Source: Zhongshania sp. (GTDB lineage Bacteria; Pseudomonadota; Gammaproteobacteria; Pseudomonadales; Spongiibacteraceae). From it: a stretch of DNA of 64,000 bases. The position numbers were made by a program, and so were the translations under genes. The notes beneath the pieces are model-generated. The model was not told the DNA's origin. It saw only the letters and a list, made by a program, of their open reading frames with translations, and searched no databases. The stretch is from assembly GCF_029212375.1 (NCBI RefSeq), contig NZ_JARGNU010000003.1:124001-188000 (forward strand). Reading direction: 5' to 3'. Shown here piece after piece: positions 7,554 to 58,302 of the stretch (position 1 is its first letter; each line of letters opens with the position of its first letter).

Positions 7554-7589
7554 AGCCGCGTGTCGGGCTGGCTTCTCTTAAGTGAGAAG
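7552..7589 (+). other. Two overlapping, mutually exclusive hairpins after pilZ
   Basis: GAAGCC (7552-7557) can pair with GGCTTC (7570-7575), and CTTCTC (7572-7577) can pair with GAGAAG (7584-7589). The two stems share bases 7572-7575, so only one can form at a time. No U-run follows. This lies between the pilZ stop and tatD. Confidence 0.35.
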
Positions 7590-42149: not shown

Positions 42150-45100
42150 CTATGGATCGTAATCCAAGTTAGGCGACAGCCAGCGTTCCATGGTTTTCAT
42201 TTCCATGCCCTTGCGGGCGGCGATGTCTTCCACCTGGTCTTTGCCAATTTTGCCTACGGCAAAGTAGCGCGACTGGGGGTGGGAGTAGTAAAAGCCACTC
42301 ACCGCCGCCGCGGGATGCATCGCAAGACTCTCGGTTAGGATAATGCCGGTTTCGCTGGTTGCGTTTAGCAAGCGGAACAGGGTTTCTTTCTCGGTATGGT
42401 CTGGGCAGGCGGGGTAGCCTGGCGCTGGCCGAATACCGCGATATTTCTCTTTAATTAATTCGTCGTTGCTGAGGTTTTCGTCACTCGCATAGGACCAGTA
42501 TTCCTTGCGTACCCGCAAATGCAGGTGTTCGGCAAAGGATTCGGCCAAGCGGTCGGCCAGCGCTTTCACCATAATGGCGCTGTAGTCGTCGTTGGCGGCG
42601 ATGAATTTCTCTGCCAGTTCATCTGCGCCTAGGCCAGTAGTCACTGCAAAGCCGCCGATATAATCGGTTTTACCGCTGTCTGTCGGGGCAATGTAGTCGG
42701 CCAAGCTCATGTGCGGCTTGTCGTCGGGCTTTTGCGCTTGCTGGCGCAGTTGGTGCAGGGTTTCAAGTGCTGCCGAGCCATCAGGGTTCATCACTGTGAT
42801 GTCGTCGCTGCCACTGCGCTGGGCGGGCCAGAAGCCGATAATGCCATTGGCCTGCAACAGCTTTTCTTTAATGATGCGGTCGAGCATGCGCTGGCCGTCG
42901 TCAAACAGATTGCGGGCGGCTTCGCCAACAATTTCATCGTTGAGAATTTTGGGGTATTTGCCCGCCAAGCCCCACGAGATAAAGAAGGGCGTCCAGTCGA
43001 TAGTTTCGCGCAGGGTTTCGAGGGGGTAGTCCGCAAAGGTGCGGGTGCCCAAGAAGCTGGGTGCTGGCGGCGTGTAATTGGCCCAGTCGGTCACAAAGCC
43101 GTTTTCGCAGGCCATTGGATACGTCAATAAGCGTTTTTTACCTTGGCTGCCAGCGCGGCGGGCGCGAACCCGCTCGTATTCGTCTTTGCGCTCGGCGACA
43201 AAGTCAGCCTTCATGTCTTCGCTGATCAGCTGGGTGGCAACCGCCACGCTGCGCGAGGCATCGGGCACATAGACCACGGCATCGTTCTGGTATTTTGGTT
43301 CGATCTTAACCGCAGTATGGGCCTTAGAGGTGGTCGCTCCACCGATCATCAGCGGAATGGTAAAGCCCTGACGCTGCATTTCGCTGGCAACGTGAACCAT
43401 TTCATCTAGCGACGGTGTGATGAGCCCGCTAAGGCCGATGATATCGACTTTCTCGCGCTTGGCGGCTTCCAAAATTTTGTCGCAAGACACCATTACGCCA
43501 AGGTCGATAACCTCGAAGTTATTGCACTGCAGCACTACGCCTACAATGTTTTTACCAATATCGTGAACATCACCTTTCACAGTGGCCATAAGCACGCGGC
43601 CATTGGCTTTGGCGCCAACCGCTTTACTGGCTTCGATAAAGGGGTTGAGGTAGGCCACGGCCTGTTTCATTACCCGCGCCGATTTAACCACCTGGGGCAG
43701 GAACATTTTGCCGTCGCCGAATAAATCGCCAACCACGTTCATGCCGTCCATCAAGGCACCTTCGATCACGTCGATGGGCTTAACAGCGGCGGCGCGGGCT
43801 ACTTCGGCGTCTTCTTCAATATAGGTCGAGATGCCTTTGACCAGGGCGTGTTCGATGCGTTTTTCAACTGGCCATTCGCGCCATGTTAGGTCTTCTTTGT
43901 TTTCGGCGGTGGAGCCGTCGCCACGGTATTTGTCGGCAATATTCAGCAGACGCTCGGTGCTGTCATCGCGGCGGTTGAGAATAACGTCTTCGACGTGATC
44001 CCTAAGTTCTTTCGGCAGGTCGTCGTAAATCGCCAATTGGCTGGCGTTTACAATGCCCATGCGCATGCCAGCTTTAATAGCGTGGTAAAGAAATACCGAG
44101 TGAATCGCCTCGCGCACGGGGTTATTGCCCCTGAATGAGAAGGAGACGTTAGAGACCCCGCCGGACACTATCGCGTAGGGCAGCTCTTTTTTGATGTAGG
44201 CAGTGGCTTCGATAAAGTCGACGGCGTAGTTATTGTGCTCGTCGATGCCGGTGGCCACGGCAAAGATGTTGGGGTCGAAAATAATGTCTTGCGGCGGAAA
44301 GCCGATCTCGTTGACCAGAATATCGTAGCTGCGTTTGCAAATTTCAGACTTGCGTTTAAAGGTGTCGGCTTGGCCGTCTTCATCAAAGGCCATCACCACC
44401 ACGGCGGCGCCGTATTTCATGCAGGCGCGAGCGCGGTCGCGAAACTCGTCTTCGCCTTCTTTCATCGAAATGGAGTTAACGATGGGCTTGCCTTGAATAC
44501 ACTTCAGGCCCGCTTCAATTACTTCCCACTTAGAGGAGTCGACCATAATCGGCACCCGGCAGATATCCGGTTCCGAGGCGATTAAGTTTAAAAAGGTGAC
44601 CATGGCATGTTTGGCGTCGAGCATGCCTTCATCCATGTTGATGTCGATCACCTGGGCGCCGTTTTCAACCTGCTGGCGGGCAACCGAGAGGGCAGCGTCG
44701 TAGTCGTTTTCTAAAATCAGGCGTTTAAATGCCGCTGAGCCGGTGACGTTGCAGCGCTCGCCCACGTTCACAAACAGCGAGTTGGCGTCGATATGAAAGG
44801 GCTCTAAGCCAGATAGGCGGCAAATAGGTTCGCGCACTGGGAGCGGGCGAGGTGCAATGCCGTCCATCGCTGCGCCAATGGCTTTGATGTGCGCTGGCGT
44901 GGTGCCGCAGCAGCCGCCGACTAAATTAAGAAAGCCGCGCTCGGCAAACTCTTTCAGCTCGCCGTGCATATCTTCTGGGGTTTCGTCGTATTCGCCAAAT
45001 TCATTGGGCAGGCCAGCGTTGAAATGGCCGCTAAAATAGCAGTCTGACGCTTCGCAAAGTTCTTCTACAAAGGGGCGTATCTCGCTGAACCGGCGGCCAC

Positions 45101-45848
45101 AGTTGGTGCCAATGATGAGCGGCTTGGCGTGGGCAATGGAGTTCCAGAACGCGGTTGGCGTTTGTCCAGATAAGGTGCGACCACTGGTGTCGGGGAAGGT
45201 CACCGAGATCATGATTGGCCGTTCGTCGCCGGTGTCTTCAAAGTATTGCAGCACTGCATAGACAGCCGCCTTGGCGTTGAGACTGTCGAAAATCGTCTCA
45301 ATCATTAGAATGTCGGCGCCGCCGGTAATCAGACCGCGAGTAGCTGCGTAGTAATTCTCTACTAATTCATCAAAGTGAGTATTGCGCGCGCCGGGGTCGT
45401 TTACGTCTGGTGAAATAGACGCGGTGCGCGGGGTGGGCCCAATAACACCGGCAACAAAGCGGGGCTTGTCGGGGTTGAGCGCAGTTGCAGCATCTGCCAC
45501 TTCACGGGCCAGTTCAGCGCCAGCACGGTTTAACTCTTCGGCAATTTCTTGTAGGTCGTAATCGCCCTGGGCGATGGCGGTGGAGTTAAAAGTGTTGGTC
45601 TCAATAACATCGGCGCCAGAGTCGAGGTAGGCCTGGTGGATTTCGCGAATAACGTCGGGGCGAGTTAGGGTGAGCAGGTCATTATTGCCCTTGAGATCGG
45701 TGTGGAAATCGGCAAAACGCGCACCGCGATAGTCAGCTTCTTCCAGCTTGTAGCTTTGAATCAAGCTGCCCATAGCGCCGTCAATCACCAGTATTCGGTT
45801 TTTGAGGGCGGTAGTAAGTTGGGCGGTGCGAGAGGTAGACTGACTCAT
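42150..45848 (-). CDS. metH: Cobalamin-dependent methionine synthase
   Basis: MetH moves a methyl group from methyltetrahydrofolate through cobalamin to homocysteine. From ATG 45848 it has 1232 residues (E. coli 1227). Domains in order: homocysteine-binding with zinc cysteines Cys250, Cys313 and Cys314; pterin-binding (about 350-620); the B12 module with [10 protein letters not shown], whose histidine near 762 is the lower cobalt ligand; and the C-terminal AdoMet activation domain with [16 protein letters not shown] precedes this ATG; a longer frame from 45908 lacks support. It is divergent to nfuA. No cobalamin riboswitch is seen in the leader. Confidence 0.97.
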
Positions 45849-49781: not shown

Positions 49782-50066
49782 ATGCGAAAATATAGCCATA
49801 GCTTGGCGTTGGGGCTGTTAAGTGCCGCGCTATTTACTTGCTCGCTGGCGCTACTGGCGGAAGAGGAGGCGGCGTTGCCAGTGGTGAAACTGTCACCACA
49901 AATTCGCAGCAGCGCTCCGCAAGGCGAAGCCTACGCCGACCTGGATTGTGAACAGTTATCTGGCGTAAAAGCAGAATCAGCAGGCCAACAGCGTGCTTTG
50001 GCGGCTCGAAAACAACAGTGTCTGGAGCAATACCGGCAGTTTATCCCCAATACAGGTTTGCGTTAA
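49782..50066 (+). CDS. Secreted small protein of unknown function
   Basis: The product has 94 residues from ATG 49782 (a GTG lies one codon earlier). It has a signal peptide of about 27 residues (ALGLLSAALFTCSLALLA) and a mature part with DLDCEQLSGVKAES, RALAARKQQCLEQYRQFIP and two cysteines. A weak lipobox (LFTC) is possible. No family is recognised. Its TAA overlaps the ATG of rlmD by one base, so the two are co-translated. Confidence 0.65.
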   Translation: MRKYSHSLALGLLSAALFTCSLALLAEEEAALPVVKLSPQIRSSAPQGEAYADLDCEQLSGVKAESAGQQRALAARKQQCLEQYRQFIPNTGLR

Positions 50067-51397
50067 TGAGTAAGCAGCGTCACCACATCAACACCTTTAA
50101 ACCAGCTAAAAAGCCGAAGCCTGCCCTAGACACCGCCGTACTAAAATTGCATATCGACAGTTTGGCCGATGACGGCCGCGGCGTAGCCCGTCACGACAAT
50201 AAAGTGGTTTTTGTTGGTGGGGCACTGCCTGAAGAAACCGTCGATGCCCAATACTTTCGCCGCCACAAGCGTTATGACGAAGCTAAGTTGCTTGCCGTAT
50301 CTACTCCGGCCGAGCAGAGAGTTGACGCGATTTGCCCTGTTTACCAGCGCTGCGGCGGCTGCCAATTGCAGCATTTAAACTACCCCAGCCAAGTGAGCTT
50401 TAAGCAACAGCGTCTGCAGCGGGTATTGGCGGCAGCGTCTGCTAATACCGAGAGCGCTACCTTGCCTGCGGCAATCACCGGCTCAGAACTTGGCTATCGT
50501 CACCGCGCGCGCCTTAGCTACCACAATGGCGTTTTAGGGTTTAAAGCGCAGGCCAGCCATGACTTAGTTAAAATTGAGCACTGCCCCTTGTTGGCAGCGG
50601 AATTGAATGGGGTTTTAAGCCAAAGCACCGCAGCCATCGCCGAGTTTTTGGGCGACAAAGCGACGGCAGAGGTGGTGTTAAGCCTAAGTGACGATGGCCG
50701 CGTAGCCCTAAAAATAAAGAAAGAAGGCTTTGTCGATGCAAAGCGCAGCGCGGTTTTGGCAGAGCAGCTAGTCGCCCCAGCGTTTTTACACAGCATTGAA
50801 GGCAGCAAAGGCGCAGCTTGGCGGGGTGAAAACGCGCCCCTTATTTATCCGGTGAGCGAAACGCTGTCGCTGCCATTTCAGCCCAGCGATTTCACTCAAG
50901 TAAATATCGCGGTGAATCAACAAATGATTCAGCAGTGCATGGCATGGCTAAAGCCCGAGACAGGCGAGCTAATCAGCGACTATTTTTGCGGCCTGGGTAA
51001 TTTCAGCTTGGCCTTGGCCAGTGCAGGAGCGCGCGTTATTGGCGTTGATGTTGGCGAGGCCATGTTGCGGCGCGCCAGCCAACAAGCGAAAACACTGGGT
51101 TTAGCGATTGAATACCGCAACGCCGATTTATTTGATGCTGAAAATATTGTTTTAGATGTCGCTAGCCACAAGGTGCTTCTCGACCCACCCCGCGCTGGCG
51201 CCAAGGCGCTGTGCGAAGTGTTGGCGCAAAGTAAAACCGTGCAAACCATTGTTTACGTCTCTTGCGACCCAGCGACATTGGCGCGAGATTTAGCAATATT
51301 GCAGGAGGGCGGTTTTGTAGTGGCAGATGCCGTAGTGGCAGATATGTTCCCGCAAACGTATCACTTGGAAAGTTTGGTGCATCTAATTCGCAATTAA
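50066..51397 (+). CDS. rlmD: 23S rRNA (uracil-1939-C5)-methyltransferase RlmD
   Basis: RlmD methylates U1939 of 23S rRNA with S-adenosylmethionine. From ATG 50066 it has 443 residues: an N-terminal TRAM domain (KLHIDSLADDGRGVARHD), the 4Fe-4S cysteines in ICPVYQRCGGCQLQH and EHCPLL, the SAM motif DYFCGLGNFSLALA, DPPRAGA and the catalytic cysteine in VYVSCDPATLARD. An upstream frame from 50018 overlaps the preceding gene and is not needed. It is the last recognised gene before the cassette region. Confidence 0.93.
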   Translation: MSKQRHHINTFKPAKKPKPALDTAVLKLHIDSLADDGRGVARHDNKVVFVGGALPEETVDAQYFRRHKRYDEAKLLAVSTPAEQRVDAICPVYQRCGGCQLQHLNYPSQVSFKQQRLQRVLAAASANTESATLPAAITGSELGYRHRARLSYHNGVLGFKAQASHDLVKIEHCPLLAAELNGVLSQSTAAIAEFLGDKATAEVVLSLSDDGRVALKIKKEGFVDAKRSAVLAEQLVAPAFLHSIEGSKGAAWRGENAPLIYPVSETLSLPFQPSDFTQVNIAVNQQMIQQCMAWLKPETGELISDYFCGLGNFSLALASAGARVIGVDVGEAMLRRASQQAKTLGLAIEYRNADLFDAENIVLDVASHKVLLDPPRAGAKALCEVLAQSKTVQTIVYVSCDPATLARDLAILQEGGFVVADAVVADMFPQTYHLESLVHLIRN

Positions 51398-51624
51398 GCA
51401 GCCCTAGGCAGGGGACTTATTCTCGGCGTGACTCTGCGATAATCTGGTTACCTGATTGCGCTTAAGCATCCGAATTGTCAGTAGCGGCTGCTCTGCACGC
51501 ATCCCCGTTGCGGCAAACCTTTATTCTTAACACCAAGGTCGCTATTCGGGGAAAATGCCTGTGCCGTATTCTAGGCTTCATACCTTGCCATTTTGGCCCC
51601 TAGGCGCCATCACCCTGAGTTTCC

Positions 51625-51734
51625 TATGTCGTCACGCTGAACTCCCTACATCGTCATTCTGAACTCCCTACATCGTCATTCTGAACTCCATACATCGTCA
51701 TTCTGAACTCCATACATCGTCATTCTGAACTTGA
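51625..51734. repeat. Five tandem copies of a 22-bp unit
   Basis: Copies start at 51625, 51647, 51669, 51691 and 51713. The core TCGTCATTCTGAACT is the same in copies 2 to 5; copy 1 differs at a few bases. The copies are head to tail without spacers, so this is a tandem repeat and not a CRISPR array. Confidence 0.92.
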
Positions 51735-51815
51735 TTCAGAATCCATATACCACCGCACTAATTCAATCTGCAAAAGCAGATGCCGGATCAAATCCGGCGT
51801 AACGCCATTGCCACA
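51720..51815. repeat. REP-like palindromic element
   Basis: The last tandem copy runs into ATTCTGAA-CTTGA-TTCAGAAT, an 8-bp hairpin, and 50 bases on there is GCCGGAT-CAA-ATCCGGC, a 7-bp hairpin followed by GTAACG. Units of this kind (hairpin ending near a GTCATTC or GTAACG border) are dispersed in many proteobacterial genomes. The tandem unit at 51625 looks like an amplified part of it. Confidence 0.65.
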
Positions 51816-52085
51816 CTGGCAGCAGTCGCTGTTTCCGCGCCATCGAGCAAATTGAACAAGAGAGTTCTTCCCATTAACACATTGGCGAATCACTTAACTC
51901 ATTGAACTTTATAAAAAACGCGATATGATCAAGGGAAAGGAATGCTTGGCAGAAATAAAGGGAAGTAATCTTCATTTGACCGCCGCTCGCTAATAGCGAA
52001 GCCGTCACATCATTGAATTTCCTAGAATTTTTCAATTAATGTTAAAGCCCGCTCCTTGATAAGGGGGCCAAAGTGATATATGGCG

Positions 52086-52112
52086 CGAGTCGTCATAACA
52101 AAACTGTTAAGC
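52086..52112 (+). other. attI-like recombination boundary of the first cassette
   Basis: The sequence ATAACAAAACTG is followed by TTAAGC; the crossover would fall between G52106 and T52107 in GTTAAGC, a match to the integron core site GTTRRRY. The preceding AACAAAACTG resembles the AAACAAAG that borders class 1 attI. It could be a true attI remnant or a secondary insertion site. Confidence 0.5.
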
Positions 52113-52125
52113 AAATGGAGCGCAT

Positions 52126-52413
52126 ATGACAGAAGATTCATATTTAAAGCAATGGACAGAGCTAAAAGAAGGGAGCGGCATTGAAAATGCTTCATTTATT
52201 TCAATAAAGCTATTCATCACTGGAGCTTTTCTCTCGATCCTAGTTGCTTTGCTAATATTCTTCCAAGTCCATTCTGCTTTCGTTGCAATAGTATCTGTAG
52301 CTATCGGCTGGGTTATTGCAGAAAGAAATGCATTGTTGTCAAAAATTGCGTTATGGCCAAAACTAGAGAAGTATCTCAATTGGGAATTAATATATGAGCA
52401 TGTTTCAAAATAA
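52126..52413 (+). CDS. Cassette 1 protein: two-TM membrane protein
   Basis: The 95-residue protein has a short acidic N-terminus, two membrane helices (about 25-46, LFITGAFLSILVALLIFF, and about 50-66) and a short cytoplasmic tail ending in NWELIYEHVSK. No family is recognised. A TGGAGCG ribosome site precedes the ATG. It is the only gene of the first cassette (52107-52523) and its composition is more AT-rich than the surrounding chromosome. Many integron cassettes carry such small membrane proteins. Confidence 0.65.
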   Translation: MTEDSYLKQWTELKEGSGIENASFISIKLFITGAFLSILVALLIFFQVHSAFVAIVSVAIGWVIAERNALLSKIALWPKLEKYLNWELIYEHVSK

Positions 52414-52416
52414 TCT

Positions 52417-52529
52417 CTTAACAAGTTTGTCCAGTTGACGTTTTGGTCTTTGCTCCGTTTTGGGGTGGCCTCGCCACTTTACCCCAAAACTCCACTACAA
52501 CCAAAACGCAACTGACAAAAGCGTTATAA
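52417..52529 (+). other. attC site of cassette 1
   Basis: An R'' box CTTAAC (52417-52422) and R' box GCGTTATAAG (52521-52530) bracket an imperfect palindrome. The left arm 52426-52447 (22 bases) pairs with 52500-52519 (20 bases), leaving two bases unpaired (a C at 52431/52432 and A52438), which matches the extrahelical bases of attC. An inner 10-bp stem GTTTTGGGGT/ACCCCAAAAC (52457-52466 with 52481-52490) tops it. CTTAAC is the exact complement of GTTAAG at the start of the same cassette. Confidence 0.85.
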
Positions 52530-52543
52530 GTCAGAGAGAACTC

Positions 52544-53833
52544 GTGGGTAAGAAGAGCCGTATCTCCGAAAATTACTCGATAGCGGAAATGCTTCAGCTG
52601 ATCGAGGCCGCTGGAAGTATTGAAAGCCTATACCGTTCAATTCCGCTTCTGCAGCGTGTATTTCCGGGGTTCAAAGGGACAGCGGACAAACTGGCAGAAT
52701 TGAAGGAACAGGCAAAAGACATGCTAGTGCCTGATCGGTTCAATGATCTGTTTTCTTCAGTTGGCTGGATCGCGTACGAGTCTATGAACCTTCAGACGAT
52801 GAAGGATGCGATCACCATCTGTGAAGGCGGCGGCCTTGACGCCGCTGAAGTGTTTTTGGCCGAGTCCTATGATTCAGAGACCCTGAAATGGGGAATTCAA
52901 TGGTTCAATGGGCATCCCGAATTTCGGAAGAGAATCCGTCTGGCTGAACTTGCTAGAGACGACTATCTGCAAGGGAGGTATCACGCATGTGTGCCGCTGA
53001 TTCTCAGTTTGCTCGATGGGTTGGTCACGGACGTTTCGAAGCATGTCGGTTTTTTCGCTGAAAACGCTGATCTCACTGCATGGGATTGCATTGCAGCCCA
53101 TGAATCTGGGCTTCAGTCGCTTGCATCGTTGATGACAAAGGGTCGGAAAAAGACAAATGAGCAATCGGTTTCCGTTCCTTATCGTCATGGCATTTTGCAC
53201 GGTCGCGAACTCGCGTTTGATAACCGCATAGTTGCAGCAAAGTCGTGGGCTGCTCTTTTCGCAGCAAGGGATTGGGCGATAGTAATATCCAAAGGAAAGA
53301 AAGAGCCTAACCCACCCCGTGAACCGACATGGAGTGAGCTGTTTGCGTCGGTCCGTAAGAACCAAGAGTTCAAGCGGCAAATTGATGAGTGGAGCCCGCG
53401 GGCAGCTTCAGAGTTGGAGCATTTGCCCCACAGCGGTGCTCTAGAAGCATTGCCTGAAGAATCTCCAGAGCGCGCTGTTGCGGAGTTTATGGACAATTGG
53501 TCAAACGGACGGTTCGGGCCAATCGCAGATGCTCTTCTTTACTTCACTGATACGACAAAAGGGAAAAAGGCTGGCCTTGCTAGGCAAGACTTCGGTGAGC
53601 GACGGCCAAATTCATTTCGCATAACTGGCGTTGAGGACCAAGCCTCATCTGCTGCTCAAGTGCAAGTGTCAGCTGTATTTGATGGGGTTGCAGGCTCCAT
53701 TGAAATTGAACTTGGCGTCAGAGCAATCTATCAAGGCGAAAACAACGACCCGCTGGTTCGCGGCGATCCGAACGGAAGCTGGCGAATCGTGCAGAACTCA
53801 TTTAGCTCGGTGCTGTACCGTGCTGATTTATAA
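52544..53833 (+). CDS. Cassette 2 protein with HEPN-like RX4H motif
   Basis: GTG at 52544, preceded by AGAGAGAA, gives 429 residues and lies just inside the cassette boundary at 52524; an upstream in-frame start at 52460 would fall within attC. The helical middle part contains YRHGILHGREL, with Arg214 and His219 spaced as in the RX4-6H active site of HEPN nucleases. The C-terminal third (about 310-429) looks like a separate alpha/beta domain, perhaps NTF2-like. No clear family. Nucleolytic activity is inference. The stop codon lies in the R'' box of its own attC. Confidence 0.65.
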   Translation: MGKKSRISENYSIAEMLQLIEAAGSIESLYRSIPLLQRVFPGFKGTADKLAELKEQAKDMLVPDRFNDLFSSVGWIAYESMNLQTMKDAITICEGGGLDAAEVFLAESYDSETLKWGIQWFNGHPEFRKRIRLAELARDDYLQGRYHACVPLILSLLDGLVTDVSKHVGFFAENADLTAWDCIAAHESGLQSLASLMTKGRKKTNEQSVSVPYRHGILHGRELAFDNRIVAAKSWAALFAARDWAIVISKGKKEPNPPREPTWSELFASVRKNQEFKRQIDEWSPRAASELEHLPHSGALEALPEESPERAVAEFMDNWSNGRFGPIADALLYFTDTTKGKKAGLARQDFGERRPNSFRITGVEDQASSAAQVQVSAVFDGVAGSIEIELGVRAIYQGENNDPLVRGDPNGSWRIVQNSFSSVLYRADL

Positions 53834-53926
53834 CAAATCGCTGCAGCTGACGTCTGACCCGCCGCCTACTTTTGCTGTCGCAAAAGTAGGCGGCGCCTCA
53901 AACGCAGTGGAGCGCAGGCGTTGAAC
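53828..53926 (+). other. attC site of cassette 2
   Basis: R'' TTATAAC (53828-53834) is the exact complement of GTTATAA at 52523-52529, where this cassette begins. The R' box is GCGTTGAAC (53918-53926), matching GTTRRRY. Between them an inner 16-bp perfect stem pairs 53860-53875 with 53880-53895 around a TGTC loop. Confidence 0.88.
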
Positions 53927-53928
53927 AT

Positions 53929-54618
53929 ATGGATCCAAAGAAGCTATTTATTGACGACCGTCTGAAGGGGATCTGCACTTATTGCGGAGGTGTGCCGAAT
54001 TCACGTGACCACATCCCGTCAAAGGTTTTATTGGATGAACCGTATCCGGAAAATTTGCCAGTTGCTGAATCATGCGCCTCCTGCAACCAAGGATTCTCGG
54101 CTGCCGAAGAATATCTCGCCTGTCTTATTGAATGCGTGATACATGGTACGACAATTCCAAACGAAAATTTTAGGCCGAAGATATATGCCACTCTCAACGC
54201 TAGACCATCGCTTGCGAGTAGAGTTGAGAAAGGAAAACAAATAGATAGCAACGGAAATATAGTATGGCAGCCGGAAAACGAGTGCGTTGAAGAAGTTATT
54301 TTAAAACTTGCCCGTGGTCATATTGCTTATGAACTCGCCATTCAGCGTGTTGACGATCCAGAATTCATAGAGATTCTCCCGTTGCCTGCAGCAACAAGAG
54401 AGCAGCAAGATGATTTTTTATCGTTACCTGCCAGTCATCTGTATCCAGAGATTGGCAGTCGTGCATTTGTGAAAGTGCTTACCGGTAAACCTAGTGCTTT
54501 TGAGAATTGGTTTGTTGTTCAAAACGACAGGTATCAATATGCCGTAGGCCAATCCGAGGGGGACTGGGTGAAAATAGTAATAAATAACTATTTAGCTTGC
54601 CATGTCGTATGGAGCTAA
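53929..54618 (+). CDS. Cassette 3 protein: HNH-type zinc-finger protein
   Basis: The 229-residue protein starts with an HNH-like module: CTYCGG (Cys16, Cys19), RDHIPSK (Asp27-His28), NLPV (Asn42) and SCASCNQGF (Cys49, Cys52, Asn53). This fits a beta-beta-alpha metal nuclease fold with a structural zinc. The remaining 170 residues match no family I recognise. ATG 53929 lies nine bases inside cassette 3 (53921-54688), so translation may depend on a neighbouring promoter. A nuclease role is likely but untested. Confidence 0.75.
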   Translation: MDPKKLFIDDRLKGICTYCGGVPNSRDHIPSKVLLDEPYPENLPVAESCASCNQGFSAAEEYLACLIECVIHGTTIPNENFRPKIYATLNARPSLASRVEKGKQIDSNGNIVWQPENECVEEVILKLARGHIAYELAIQRVDDPEFIEILPLPAATREQQDDFLSLPASHLYPEIGSRAFVKVLTGKPSAFENWFVVQNDRYQYAVGQSEGDWVKIVINNYLACHVVWS

Positions 54619-54623
54619 GAGTG

Positions 54624-54692
54624 TATAGCAATCGCAAGCACACGGATCAAATTACCGCTGCACTACAATTTTCTCTGTGTTGCGGGCGTTAT
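54624..54692 (+). other. attC-like site of cassette 3 (degenerate)
   Basis: An R'-like GGGCGTTATCC (54684-54694) and a left TATAGCAA (54624-54631) bracket arms CGCAAGCACACGGA (54633-54646) and TCTCTGTGTTGCG (54672-54684) that pair with one or two unpaired bases. The R'' box does not match the cassette start GTTGAAC, so this site is less certain than the first two. Confidence 0.6.
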
Positions 54693-54829
54693 CCTCATAA
54701 AAAACTAATACTACTGATCTTATGTCTATGCTCAATTTCGGCTTTTCAAGTCAGCGCAGGAGAGATTATTTGACAGACTTGGTTAAAACCGAATGTGTCG
54801 AGCCGCTTAAGTAAATTAACGCCGTTATA

Positions 54830-55675
54830 TTATTGGTGAATCGCGCTGTGGTTATGCTCGCTATTTGGCTGGTGAGCGCTTTTATGAATAAGCATTGTGT
54901 ATAGCGGGTAGAGCGCTAAGACGGTCAGCAGACCGGCAAAGCCGTAGCGGGTGAGGGGCTTTTTTAATGCGCAGCGCAGGCCGCCACTCAAACTGCCGAT
55001 GCTTAATACCGCTGGTGCGGTACCCAAGCCAAAACAGGCCATGAGTATTGCCGACTGTATCGCACTGCCGCTCAGTGCCGACCACGCGAGGGCACTGTAT
55101 ATAAGCCCGCAGGGTAAAAAGCCCCACAAACCGCCAATGGAGATGGCTTTGGCGGGCGAGTCTACGGGAATAAAGCGTTTGCTTACGGGTTGTAATTTCT
55201 GCCAAACGCGGCCGCCTAGTTTTTCTAACATCATTGCGATACGGCTCCAGCCGGCGACAGACAGCGCCATAATAATGAGCATGACACTGGCGAGTATCCG
55301 CAGTGCTTGGCTGATAGGCATGAGATGCGCCGCCGCTAATGAGTCTGCCGTTGCAACGGATCCGCCAAGGATGGCGCCGAGGAATGCATAGCTTGAAATG
55401 CGGCCGAGCTGAAATAGTAGGCTGTAGTAGATGCTTTGCAGGCTGTTGGATGATTTGCTTTTGGCAATTAATACGCTGCTATGGTGTTGTGAAAGGTGTT
55501 GTGGGTGGTGTTGTAGAACGTGTTCTGGAGCGCGTTGAACCGGCGCCGCGGTGCTTGAGGCGCCCAGCAAACCGGCGATACCGCCGCACATAGCTACACA
55601 GTGGGGGCTGCCAACTAAACCCAGTAAAAATGCTGCTGAGTAACTTAATGCCTCGGGGATTACTTCAGGCATCAT
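54830..55675 (-). CDS. TauE/SafE-like membrane protein of the cbb3 cluster
   Basis: The protein has about six membrane helices with the family motifs GSPHCVAMCGGIAG near the start and LWGFLPCGLIYSALAWS in the middle, as in the sulfite exporter TauE/SafE-DsbD_2 group encoded beside ccoS in gammaproteobacteria. From ATG 55675 it overlaps ccoS by 11 bases and has 281 residues. A loop between helices 1 and 2 is rich in histidine (HVLQHHPQHLSQHH) and the C-terminus ends HSAIHQ. A part in copper supply to the oxidase is plausible but inferred. Confidence 0.8.
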   Translation of the reverse strand: MMPEVIPEALSYSAAFLLGLVGSPHCVAMCGGIAGLLGASSTAAPVQRAPEHVLQHHPQHLSQHHSSVLIAKSKSSNSLQSIYYSLLFQLGRISSYAFLGAILGGSVATADSLAAAHLMPISQALRILASVMLIIMALSVAGWSRIAMMLEKLGGRVWQKLQPVSKRFIPVDSPAKAISIGGLWGFLPCGLIYSALAWSALSGSAIQSAILMACFGLGTAPAVLSIGSLSGGLRCALKKPLTRYGFAGLLTVLALYPLYTMLIHKSAHQPNSEHNHSAIHQ

Positions 55676-55847
55676 TGTCTGAGTCTCGCTTGGGTTGTGG
55701 TGCTGAATTGCGCGGCTTGGTGTCTTCGTCAAACAAGATACGCTCGCCTTCGCGATCTAAATCTTCAAATTGCTCATTGCCCACCGACCACCAAAACAAA
55801 AATACGGCCAAGCCAAAAAAGACCAAAGCGATGGGTAATAGAATCAT
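55665..55847 (-). CDS. ccoS: Cbb3 oxidase maturation protein CcoS
   Basis: CcoS is a small membrane protein needed to insert heme into cbb3 oxidase. From ATG 55847 it has 60 residues: one membrane helix (ILLPIALVFFGLAVFLFWW) then NEQFEDLDREGERILFDED, the CcoS signature. A longer frame starting at 55958 overlaps ccoI and is rejected. It starts four bases after the ccoI stop. Confidence 0.9.
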   Translation of the reverse strand: MILLPIALVFFGLAVFLFWWSVGNEQFEDLDREGERILFDEDTKPRNSAPQPKRDSDNDA

Positions 55848-55851
55848 TAAA

Positions 55852-58302
55852 CTAGCCACGATGTACCCCACTTGCTGCGAGCGAGTTAAGCGCTTGTGGC
55901 TTGGCCTCGGGCAATTGCAGACGGTCGTTATTGCGGGTGGTGCCGATTCGCAGGGCATTTAACACCACCGCTAAGGAGCTAAGTGACATACCCAGCGCCG
56001 CCAGCCACGGCGGCACCAAACCCATGGCCGCTAGGGGAAGGGCGAGTAGGTTATAGAGTAGCGCCCAACTGAGGTTTTGTATCAAAATACCGCGGCTTTG
56101 TTTGGCTTTGCTAAACAGGGTGGCGATACTTTGTAGGCTGTTATCCAGCAGCACCACATCCGCTTGGGTGCGGGTTAATTGGCTGGCGCTGCTCATGGCT
56201 ACCGAGATATCGGCACCGGCAATAACAGGGGCGTCATTAATGCCGTCGCCCACCATCATGACCACGGCGCCTTCGGCTTGTAGCTTTTTAACATGAGCGA
56301 GTTTTTGCGCTGCACTGCGGCCAGCTTGAAAATCTTCAATGTTGAGCATGCCGGCAATTTGGGCCACTTGCCCAGAGTTGTCACCGCTGAGTATTTGGAT
56401 TTGCATTCCGGCGTCTTGCAAACTTTGCACTAGCTCTGCGGCGTCGTGGCGAATTTCATCGGCGAGTTGAAAGTGCGCTAATAACTGGGTGTCGTCGGCG
56501 AGATAAACATTGAGATGGGGGCTATCATGCTTTGGGTTTACACCGCAAAACGCGGCACTGCCAATGCGGTAGTGGCGGCCATTGATACTGCCACGAATTC
56601 CCGATCCGCTGAGTACTTCGCCGTTTTCTAGGGTGAATTCAAGGTCTGCTTTGTGTTCGCAATGAAAGGCGTGGGCAATCGGATGTTGTGAAAGCTGCTC
56701 TAGGCTGGCGGCGATCCGGCGCGCCGTGGGTTCATTTATATCGCCAAATAAACGACAAGATAAAATATGTGGGCGTCCTTCTGTGAGGGTACCCGTTTTG
56801 TCAAAGATAATGTGACTGACATTGCGCAACTGTTCTAACACGCTGCCATTTGTTAAGAGTACGCCGTGTTTGCCCAATGTTTTAATCGCAGCGGTATAGC
56901 TGGCGGGGGTTGCCAGCGACAGGGCGCAGGGGCAGCTAACAACTAATACCGACAGCGCAATAATAAACGCTGAGTCGCCGTCGTGGTTGAACCAATAGGC
57001 AAAACTGACGCCGCTTATTAGCATTACCAATAGCACAAAATGGCTAGCTAAGCGGTCGGCCAGTTGCGCCACGGCGGGTTTGCTGGCTTGGGCTTGCTCA
57101 AGCAATTCAGCAATTTTAGCCCAGCCGGTATTGGCCGCGATGGCGCTCACTTCAATGTCAAGGTTGCCATCGATATTGCCGCTGCCCGCCATAACGACGT
57201 CGTTTGGCCCGCAGTTGGTGGGCAGAAATTCGCCGCTAAAGGCGCTGCTTTCCACGCTGCTTTGGCCGCGACGAATAATGCCATCTACCGGTATTACTTC
57301 GCCGGCATGAACATTGATAAGCTCGCCTACCGCAAGTGACTTCACCGATGTCCACTCAAAACTACTGCTGCCGAGGCGAGAAATTTTACGCGCTGATAAT
57401 GGCAGCGAGCCGCCGCAATGCTGGTACTGGCTGACCCGCAGTTGCAAATAGCGGCTCAGGAGCAGAAAAAACGTGAACATACTAATAGTGTCGTAATAGA
57501 CGTGTTCGCCCTGATTTACTGTCGCAATCACGCTGCCGATGTACGCCGCGCCTAAGGCAATGGCAACAGGTACGTCCATACCCAAATGCTTATGGCGTAC
57601 AGATCGCCACGCGTTTTTGAAAAACGGTTGCGCGGCGTAGAGTAGCACCGGTGTGGTAATCAGCAGGCTAAATAGCCTGAGCAGGGTGCGGGTGCTGTCA
57701 TCGATGCCTTGAAAGTCGCCAGCGTAAAGGCCGATGGCAACCATGCCAACTTGCATCATGCCGATGCCTGCGACACCTAAGCGCCGGAGCAGGCCGTCCA
57801 TTTCCTCTTGCAATTGACTGTCGCGGTTAGTCGCCGACCAAGGTAGGGCTTGGTAGCCAAGGGTACTAAAAGCGGTGAAGAGTGCGCTGGGTTTAAGCTT
57901 TTCTGGATTCCACTTCAAGGTGGCAACGGCATTTTGCAGGTGCACGCTAATAGATTCGACGCCGTCAATGTTTTGTAGATGATGCTCAATTAACCACGCA
58001 CAGGCGGCGCAGCGCAAACCACCAACACTAAAGCGGCTGACCCAATATTGGTCGTCGCGGCGGGAAAATTCTTCGATTAGGGCGAGATTGTCAAAGCGAC
58101 GGTAATCGTCATTGCCCTCGTTGGGCGTTATGGCCGTGCCAGCGCGCAGCCGGTAATAATCGCTCAGTCCGGCAGTGAGAATACATTCTGCAACCGCTTG
58201 GCAGCCACCGCAGCACAGTTGTTGCTGCTCATCAGCAATGCGTAAAGTGAAGTTGGCGCCGGTGGGAATTGTTTCACCACAGTGGTAACACCTCGCGCTC
58301 AT
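55852..58302 (-). CDS. ccoI: Cu-translocating P-type ATPase CcoI
   Basis: CcoI exports copper across the inner membrane for assembly of cbb3 oxidase. The 816-residue protein has an N-terminal cysteine cluster (CYHC at 5-8, CCGGC at 30-34), a heavy-metal domain with LRCAAC (Cys98, Cys101), eight membrane helices, the CPC motif in VVSCPCALSLATP, DKTGTLTEG, QHPIAHAF and GDGINDAP. It overlaps ccoH by four bases (ATGA). Confidence 0.95.
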   Translation of the reverse strand: MSARCYHCGETIPTGANFTLRIADEQQQLCCGGCQAVAECILTAGLSDYYRLRAGTAITPNEGNDDYRRFDNLALIEEFSRRDDQYWVSRFSVGGLRCAACAWLIEHHLQNIDGVESISVHLQNAVATLKWNPEKLKPSALFTAFSTLGYQALPWSATNRDSQLQEEMDGLLRRLGVAGIGMMQVGMVAIGLYAGDFQGIDDSTRTLLRLFSLLITTPVLLYAAQPFFKNAWRSVRHKHLGMDVPVAIALGAAYIGSVIATVNQGEHVYYDTISMFTFFLLLSRYLQLRVSQYQHCGGSLPLSARKISRLGSSSFEWTSVKSLAVGELINVHAGEVIPVDGIIRRGQSSVESSAFSGEFLPTNCGPNDVVMAGSGNIDGNLDIEVSAIAANTGWAKIAELLEQAQASKPAVAQLADRLASHFVLLVMLISGVSFAYWFNHDGDSAFIIALSVLVVSCPCALSLATPASYTAAIKTLGKHGVLLTNGSVLEQLRNVSHIIFDKTGTLTEGRPHILSCRLFGDINEPTARRIAASLEQLSQHPIAHAFHCEHKADLEFTLENGEVLSGSGIRGSINGRHYRIGSAAFCGVNPKHDSPHLNVYLADDTQLLAHFQLADEIRHDAAELVQSLQDAGMQIQILSGDNSGQVAQIAGMLNIEDFQAGRSAAQKLAHVKKLQAEGAVVMMVGDGINDAPVIAGADISVAMSSASQLTRTQADVVLLDNSLQSIATLFSKAKQSRGILIQNLSWALLYNLLALPLAAMGLVPPWLAALGMSLSSLAVVLNALRIGTTRNNDRLQLPEAKPQALNSLAASGVHRG

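Follow-up and report, generated by a model that had tools for sequence, protein, structure and literature searches.

Integrons are usually described as one integrase gene (intI), one attachment site (attI) and one array of gene cassettes. Here we describe a segment of the draft genome of Zhongshania sp. (3.80 Mb in 29 contigs), in which three gene cassettes follow an attI unit with a putative promoter between rlmD and the ccoS region, away from any intI. The window, by which we mean the whole stretch of DNA analysed (64 kb), comprises bases 124001-188000 of contig C13 (294 kb). The segment is probably an orphan integron platform, that is, an attI site and a promoter resembling the integron promoter Pc that became detached from intI and captured three cassettes by recombination between attI and attC.

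Clusters of attC sites and single attC sites without a neighbouring integrase are known as CALIN and SALIN, respectively (PMC9024848, PMC9229058 and PMC12444791, cited here and below from the parts of their text that were available). The locus resembles these in carrying attC cassettes away from intI, and those of Xanthomonas are also found at recurrent loci (PMC12444791); it differs from them, as they are described for Shewanella in the available text of PMC9229058, in that its cassettes are preceded by a unit of attI and a Pc-like promoter, which belongs to a dispersed family. With the sedentary chromosomal integron it shares attI, a Pc-like promoter and attC cassettes, and members of its attI family adjoin intI both in the same genome and in related ones, but intI is missing at the window locus and many small platforms take the place of one array. 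The occurrence of attI sequence away from its usual place beside intI is also documented in the delta-attI-type cassettes of mobile integrons, in which the fragments span 14-18 nt, in one case 244 nt, and once the complete 65-bp attI1 (PMC12901181, available text). There, however, the fragment lies downstream of an open reading frame (ORF) and replaces attC, whereas here a 260-bp promoter-bearing unit lies upstream and receives cassettes. Chromosomal cassettes without intI are likewise associated with attG (as cited in the available parts of PMC12901181 and PMC12444791), which is a non-classical site, unlike the site in the window, which homology indicates to be a classical attI. No account of dispersed attI units without intI was found in the literature searched, where most subscription papers fell outside reach, and a search for Zhongshania together with integrons returned nothing on topic, as judged by titles and abstract starts.

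The landing site and its putative promoter are here a dispersed and mostly intI-free unit. Such orphan platforms would offer an origin for CALINs other than decay and would show how a single integrase could supply cassettes to many places in the chromosome. According to the available text of its description, IntegronFinder 2.0 leaves attI sites outside class 1 undetected (PMC9024848), and software without an attI model reports such loci as attC clusters only. If one integrase does serve many mobile platforms, many CALINs elsewhere would be live landing sites that are invisible to current software.

attC sites and cassette boundaries

A preliminary description made from the sequence alone had proposed three plus-strand genes, each followed by an attC site. 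The three genes are present, and attC sites were sought with a full-length covariance model (R3) trained on 25 attC sites, all from other genomes. The seeds were picked by box spacing and arm pairing and the cassette-end match was not used in their choice; one coding-like candidate was dropped by eye, and L037 was excluded, being from the same genome as the window. Applied to 218,766 bases with explicit R and L boxes, the seed rule gave 34 matches on the unit strand and 12 on the opposite one. The seed arms co-vary, with 88.6% of 325 cells paired and 98 cells changed on both sides compared to 29.3 in shuffles, though this covariation is partly built in, since pairing was a selection criterion. 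In an R3 scan of both strands of the window, the three expected sites, and no others, rank 1st to 3rd in 64 kb; all three lie on the plus strand, and the next-best match has an expectation value (E) of 0.48, these E-values being rough because the calibration was short. The attC2 site is weak when taken alone (E 0.044) and drops out of the R3 listing at E <= 0.1 when the speed filters are on and all 46 sources are searched. The outer boundaries proposed earlier, G52106 and G54688, agree with the R' positions given by R3. Two inverted repeats are also found where they had been placed, one with 28-nt arms at 52439/52481 (75% complementary) and the other with 25-nt arms at 53851/53880 (88% complementary).

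Plain arm-pairing and default-folding attC finders proved too noisy or blind to obvious sites, a simple arm-pairing scan of the window giving 32 and 29 weak matches on the two strands. Another covariance model (R2; 48 positions, loop removed) was unable to span long loops and identified only attC3 in the window (E 0.0076), and R3 was substituted for it.

Cassettes 1 and 2 obey the circular-cassette rule, their two ends matching at 6/7 (GTTAAGC/TCTTAAC) and 7/7 letters (GTTATAA/TTATAAC), respectively, whereas cassette 3 does not, with only 4/7 (GTTGAAC/GTATAGC). The end match claimed in the preliminary description thus holds for the first two cassettes and fails for the third, which has possibly been altered or fused. 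By these sequence criteria, the three genes described here belong to true cassettes, each ending in an attC.

An attI unit upstream of the cassettes

Positions 51853-52113 of the window, which stand directly before cassette 1, align without gaps to the region between intI and the first cassette on contig C24 of the same genome (L014, 15322-15582), with 232 of 261 positions identical (89%). The alignment stops abruptly at the left, and the flanks beyond are unrelated. The unit includes a sigma-70-like promoter, the place of which is conserved among aligned copies, and a conserved leader; its right end is ATAACAAAACTGTTA, where the cassettes start. A search for a conserved leader RNA found none (7 predicted pairs, covariation term -0.14), and an Rfam scan up to E 5 gave a single match, far below its cut-off. 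To the left of the unit, at 51610-51741, lies a tandem 22-bp repeat (about TCATTCTGAACTCCMTACATCG), and similar repeats lie left of several other units.

A sequence model of 160 positions (R1), built from the right part of 38 unit copies, matches the intI side at 10 of the 36 intI loci searched, 8 of them distinct (L109/L178 and L108/L146 are the same genomes), in the genus, Spongiibacter thalassae, Porticoccus, other Porticoccaceae and Microbulbifer. Because R1 matches the intI side in several genera and the window unit aligns to L014, the unit is identified as attI by its homology to the intI-side region and by its cassette junctions.

As judged from sequence, then, the locus is both a CALIN and an attI platform of a dispersed family. 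The earlier reading as an integrase-less CALIN is right by the usual definition (a cluster of attC sites with no neighbouring intI), but it is incomplete, having missed the attI-promoter unit upstream, the integrase on C24 and the dispersal of the unit throughout the genus.

Dispersal of the unit

A 271-bp unit query has matches in 14 of 57 genomes, that of the window included, comprising 13 of the 18 genomes of the genus and a weak match in one outside it. R1 has 90 matches, some partial, in 16 of the 18, with at least two in 14, and no match in three sister-genus genomes. Among 12 genomes reached via named loci, four match the unit, namely Spongiibacter thalassae (4 matches; this genome is G001 of the genus set, with identical unit coordinates), the metagenome-assembled genome (MAG) G058 of the Porticoccaceae (9), another Porticoccaceae MAG (2) and Microbulbifer marinus (2), and eight have none. 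With stricter filters, an order-wide scan finds the unit in 19 of 390 genomes, four of which lie outside the genus.

We examined 46 unit copies, 42 from the window and the loci fetched for the unit and four from loci fetched for intI (L014, L240, L241 and L244); these loci represent the stronger matches of the 271-bp query and not every copy. Upstream sequence of at least 2.5 kb was examined for 45 of the 46. Of the first 42, 40 are without an IntI match upstream and the other two have a full-length match (L045) and a short piece (L065), while the four copies fetched via intI lie beside two full-length intI genes and two remnants. In G058, one of the nine copies adjoins a full-length intI (L285/L304) and the others have no match in the stretches examined (at least 1.5 kb per side). 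In G195, from another family, two of the four copies have IntI remnants (L318 and L319). Two attI units may also lie close together, as in G005 (L047, 2904-3160 and 4718-4966), where attC sites lie in the 1.8 kb that separates them.

Cassettes at orphan sites and their turnover

In 46 sources, which include the 25 seeds, R3 identifies 73 attC sites at E <= 0.1. An attC is found downstream on the same strand at 30 of the 46 unit copies; the figure is 25 of 40 when six copies with a neighbouring intI or remnant are left aside. Each junction was examined by comparing the next R'', over seven letters, with the reverse-complemented attI core or R' before it. The match is exact at 49 of 67 junctions, with one mismatch at 12, two at three and three at three, compared to 3.6% exact under random pairing; one junction is counted double, since L047 holds two units, and missed attC sites make some junctions span two cassettes. 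At attI itself, the first cassette matches exactly in 20 of the 27 testable copies, and among orphan copies alone in 16 of 22. Because cassette ends match at the junctions, we conclude from these sequences that cassettes entered the orphan attI sites by site-specific recombination.

Comparison of loci shows that genes turn over at the attI boundary. The left flank is common and the first cassette different between the window and L041, L037 and L043, L049 and L060, L052 and L055, and L051 and L074. In a tree of the unit copies, the first four of these pairs are sister rows, and L051 and L074 belong to the same group of four rows; the support for the window with L041 is 96/78, and for the window with the intI-side copy L014 it is 91/92. 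Conversely, one cassette is first in line at two different loci, L037 (G000) and L052 (G017).

The preliminary description had taken an invariant locus in related strains as evidence against its reading; the relatives compared vary at this place. The best matches of rlmD were followed across all 18 genus genomes, with 94% identity in both G002 and G011. G002 carries the unit (92%) after rlmD as in the window, followed by a different first cassette, whereas G011 has no unit after rlmD and carries other genes there; rlmD beside the cbb3 genes is a possible native order. The G002 contig with rlmD (C7) breaks 517 bases further on, inside what appears by eye to be one end of the group II intron seen in L014, and its contig with the cbb3 flank (C4) starts with the other end of this intron, followed by an attC, and matches the window from 54807 onward. 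We infer that the two contigs join through a group II intron inside an array orthologous to the window locus. At another site of G002, a unit and a single cassette are both absent from the G011 counterpart; the right flanks agree to 89% over 7 kb, and of the left flank a 72-base piece is 89% identical.

An integrase elsewhere in the genome

The absence of an integrase, as described earlier, is correct for the window and not for the genome as a whole. Contig C13 has no match over the cut-off of TIGR02249, and no IntI match is found in the 2.8 kb upstream of the unit, but elsewhere in the genome, on C24, a single integron integrase exceeds the family cut-off (44278-45216; 415 bits, cut-off 265). 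The IntI of Zhongshania sp. BJYM1 is 94% identical to it. Between intI and the attI unit of G005 (L045, about 7563-7582), the sequence TACTGTATAAAAATACAGTA resembles a LexA box; at the equivalent place in G000 the sequence is less symmetric.

The C24 array also holds a group II intron reverse transcriptase (L014, 16621-17952; TIGR04416, 407 bits), and intron ends were seen by eye in L041 and L236 too. Other genes of this intI-side array (L014, 15587-19664) include those of a GNAT acetyltransferase, an Imp-YgjV membrane protein and a DUF3800 protein. On contig C7 of G000, two tyrosine recombinase genes (81445-81912 and 88887-89354) of equal score and frame length lie 7.4 kb apart and are possibly parts of a duplicated element.

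A model for the orphan platform and its alternatives

We propose that an attI-Pc platform without intI would receive cassettes by attI x attC recombination, the integrase being supplied in trans, now or formerly, from the C24 intI locus or its ancestor. Pc would transcribe the first cassette or cassettes, and the whole unit would be copied to new loci as one piece. In its fullest form, which we offer tentatively and regard as possible though somewhat doubtful, each cell has a single integrase gene, preceded in a relative by a LexA-like box, whose product serves as many as about ten attI-Pc platforms that stand alone across the chromosome. The platform would itself be mobile, so that cassettes would move between many loci and be expressed from them, in place of one array.

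A number of observations weigh against this model. The ends of cassette 3 do not obey the rule of matching ends. By itself, the match to Pc is what chance would give, since shuffles of the region contain on average 0.8 such sites. The attI family is not found beside every intI, 26 of the 36 intI loci having no R1 match, and for 16 of the 46 unit copies, some at contig ends or without the GTT core, no downstream attC was detected. The intI of this genome (L014, 14267-15259, minus strand) and that of G005 have an ATG in common, and in the former the ninth codon beyond it is a TAG in frame, although a 312-aa frame from a downstream TTG still scores 410 bits and covers profile positions 6-314 of 315; the intI of G005 has an internal stop; and four of the 18 genus genomes lack an intI over the cut-off, three of which still hold units (five in G002, nine in G017 and ten in G009). 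Present-day action in trans is unproven because of the TAG, the stop in G005 and the unit-bearing genomes without intI, and some strains may have active platforms where others have frozen ones.

Decay of the integrase leads to a different explanation, in which each orphan platform is the relic of a complete integron that lost intI in place, with no need for action in trans. The IntI remnants beside the units of L240, L241, L065, L318 and L319 are in line with this, as is the decay of intI in the genus. However, the 40 of 42 units without an IntI match are not, nor is the sharp left end of the window unit, which abuts sequence unrelated to the intI promoter, and a sharp left boundary recurs by eye in a second family with its own set of copies. 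It would also be unparsimonious for up to ten complete integrons per genome to have nearly all lost intI at one boundary, and we consider this origin distinctly unlikely. Somewhat better placed, though still rather unlikely, is the view that the attI unit is the cargo of a small element resembling a miniature inverted-repeat transposable element (MITE), with ends just outside the unit and cassettes riding inside. An extra left end about 38 bp upstream is common to 14 of the 46 copies (at most 11/30 mismatches) and to none of 500 random windows, a sequence like GTTGAGGCTGTAGAAAAACC lies downstream of units in 13 of 15 loose matches, the two ends are partly inverted-similar by eye, and the unit is present in G002 and absent from G011. 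On the other hand, no transposase is tied to the unit, a stricter motif recovers the right end in just 2 of 46 copies, terminal inverted repeats were sought and not established, and no target-site duplication is readable, the empty site of G011 having diverged. MITE-like transposition could nonetheless be the route by which orphan attI platforms spread. In the arrays of L049, L060, L061 and L241, the end lies at GTTGAGGCTGTATAAAAACC, followed by a common stretch that starts a transposase-like frame by eye (broken in L060).

The upstream repeat could also be an ordinary promoter repeat and not an attI, the cassettes having entered non-classical sites like attG, at which cassette insertion is described (as cited in the available parts of PMC12901181 and PMC12444791). 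This is very improbable, given that the repeat holds the attI position beside intI in several genera and that first cassettes begin at its end, with the exact R'' boxes at orphan copies noted above. Lastly, the many weak matches of the arm-pairing scan and the weakness of attC2 would fit chance palindromes between ordinary chromosomal genes, but with R3 placing exactly the three sites on top, cassette ends matching at the junctions and genes turning over at the attI boundary between loci, this last reading is hardly credible and we regard it as refuted. The orphan platform, an attI-Pc unit loaded with cassettes away from intI, is the reading under which the features of the locus are listed below.

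Features of the locus

In the ORF list, the three plus-strand genes lie between rlmD on the left and a block of ccoS and a heavy-metal P-type ATPase gene on the right (Table 1).

Table 1. Coordinates of the proposed orphan platform, its cassettes and the flanking genes in the window
Feature	Position	Strand	Basis or remark
rlmD (left flank)	50018..51397	+	TIGR00479, 270.7 bits (cut-off 183.55)
Orphan attI unit (promoter, leader, attI core)	51853..52112	+	Gapless match to L014 15322-15582 beside intI; aligned copies
Pc-like sigma-70 promoter, TTGAAC-16-TATGAT	51902..51929	+	9/12 consensus letters; place conserved among aligned copies
attI core TCATAACAAAACTGTTAAGC, predicted crossover after G52106	52093..52112	+	Conserved end of copies; first-cassette end matches
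Gene cassette 1	52107..52523	+	attI crossover to attC1 crossover; ends match 6/7
ORF of cassette 1, 95 aa (P0001)	52126..52413	+	Hydrophobic stretches by eye
attC1 (R'' of cassette 1 to R' of cassette 2)	52416..52529	+	R3, 34.4 bits, E 3e-6
Gene cassette 2	52524..53920	+	attC1 crossover to attC2 crossover; ends match 7/7
ORF of cassette 2, 429 aa from GTG (P0002)	52544..53833	+	Alternative longer frame possible from TTG 52460
attC2, long hairpin within variable part	53828..53926	+	R3 without filters, 18.1 bits, E 0.044 over 64 kb
Gene cassette 3	53921..54688	+	attC2 crossover to attC3 crossover; ends match 4/7
ORF of cassette 3, 229 aa (P0003)	53929..54618	+	Cysteine pairs, DHIPSK
attC3, array end	54623..54694	+	R3, 46.3 bits, E 2.7e-9, top match of the window
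Gene of 300-aa protein (right flank)	54830..55732	-	ORF list; no family over cut-off
ccoS	55665-55958		Family match over cut-off; adjoins gene of 300-aa protein
Heavy-metal P-type ATPase gene (right flank)	55852-58302		Family match over cut-off

Cassette products

The three products had been described as unrecognised or only partly recognised, and indeed none of the three has a match at E <= 1 in Pfam, NCBIfam or PADLOC. A PHROG search of the cassette proteins gave weak matches alone (best E 0.18), among them one of P0003 to HNH (E 0.36). The cysteine pairs and the DHIPSK motif of P0003, read by eye, are reminiscent of HNH nucleases; no match to P0003 was found in the PDB. Relatives of P0003 occur on nine plasmid records, the best being 78.9% identical and located on a Pantoea dispersa plasmid, near which R3 gave no attC match in 5,684 bases. 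P0002 was found, among 293 genomes of the order, in its own genome and one other, the latter with two partial matches at 35%. In G002, a lone cassette at an orphan attI (L042, 3438-4022) encodes a protein with weak similarity to HEPN (E 3e-4, below the cut-off).

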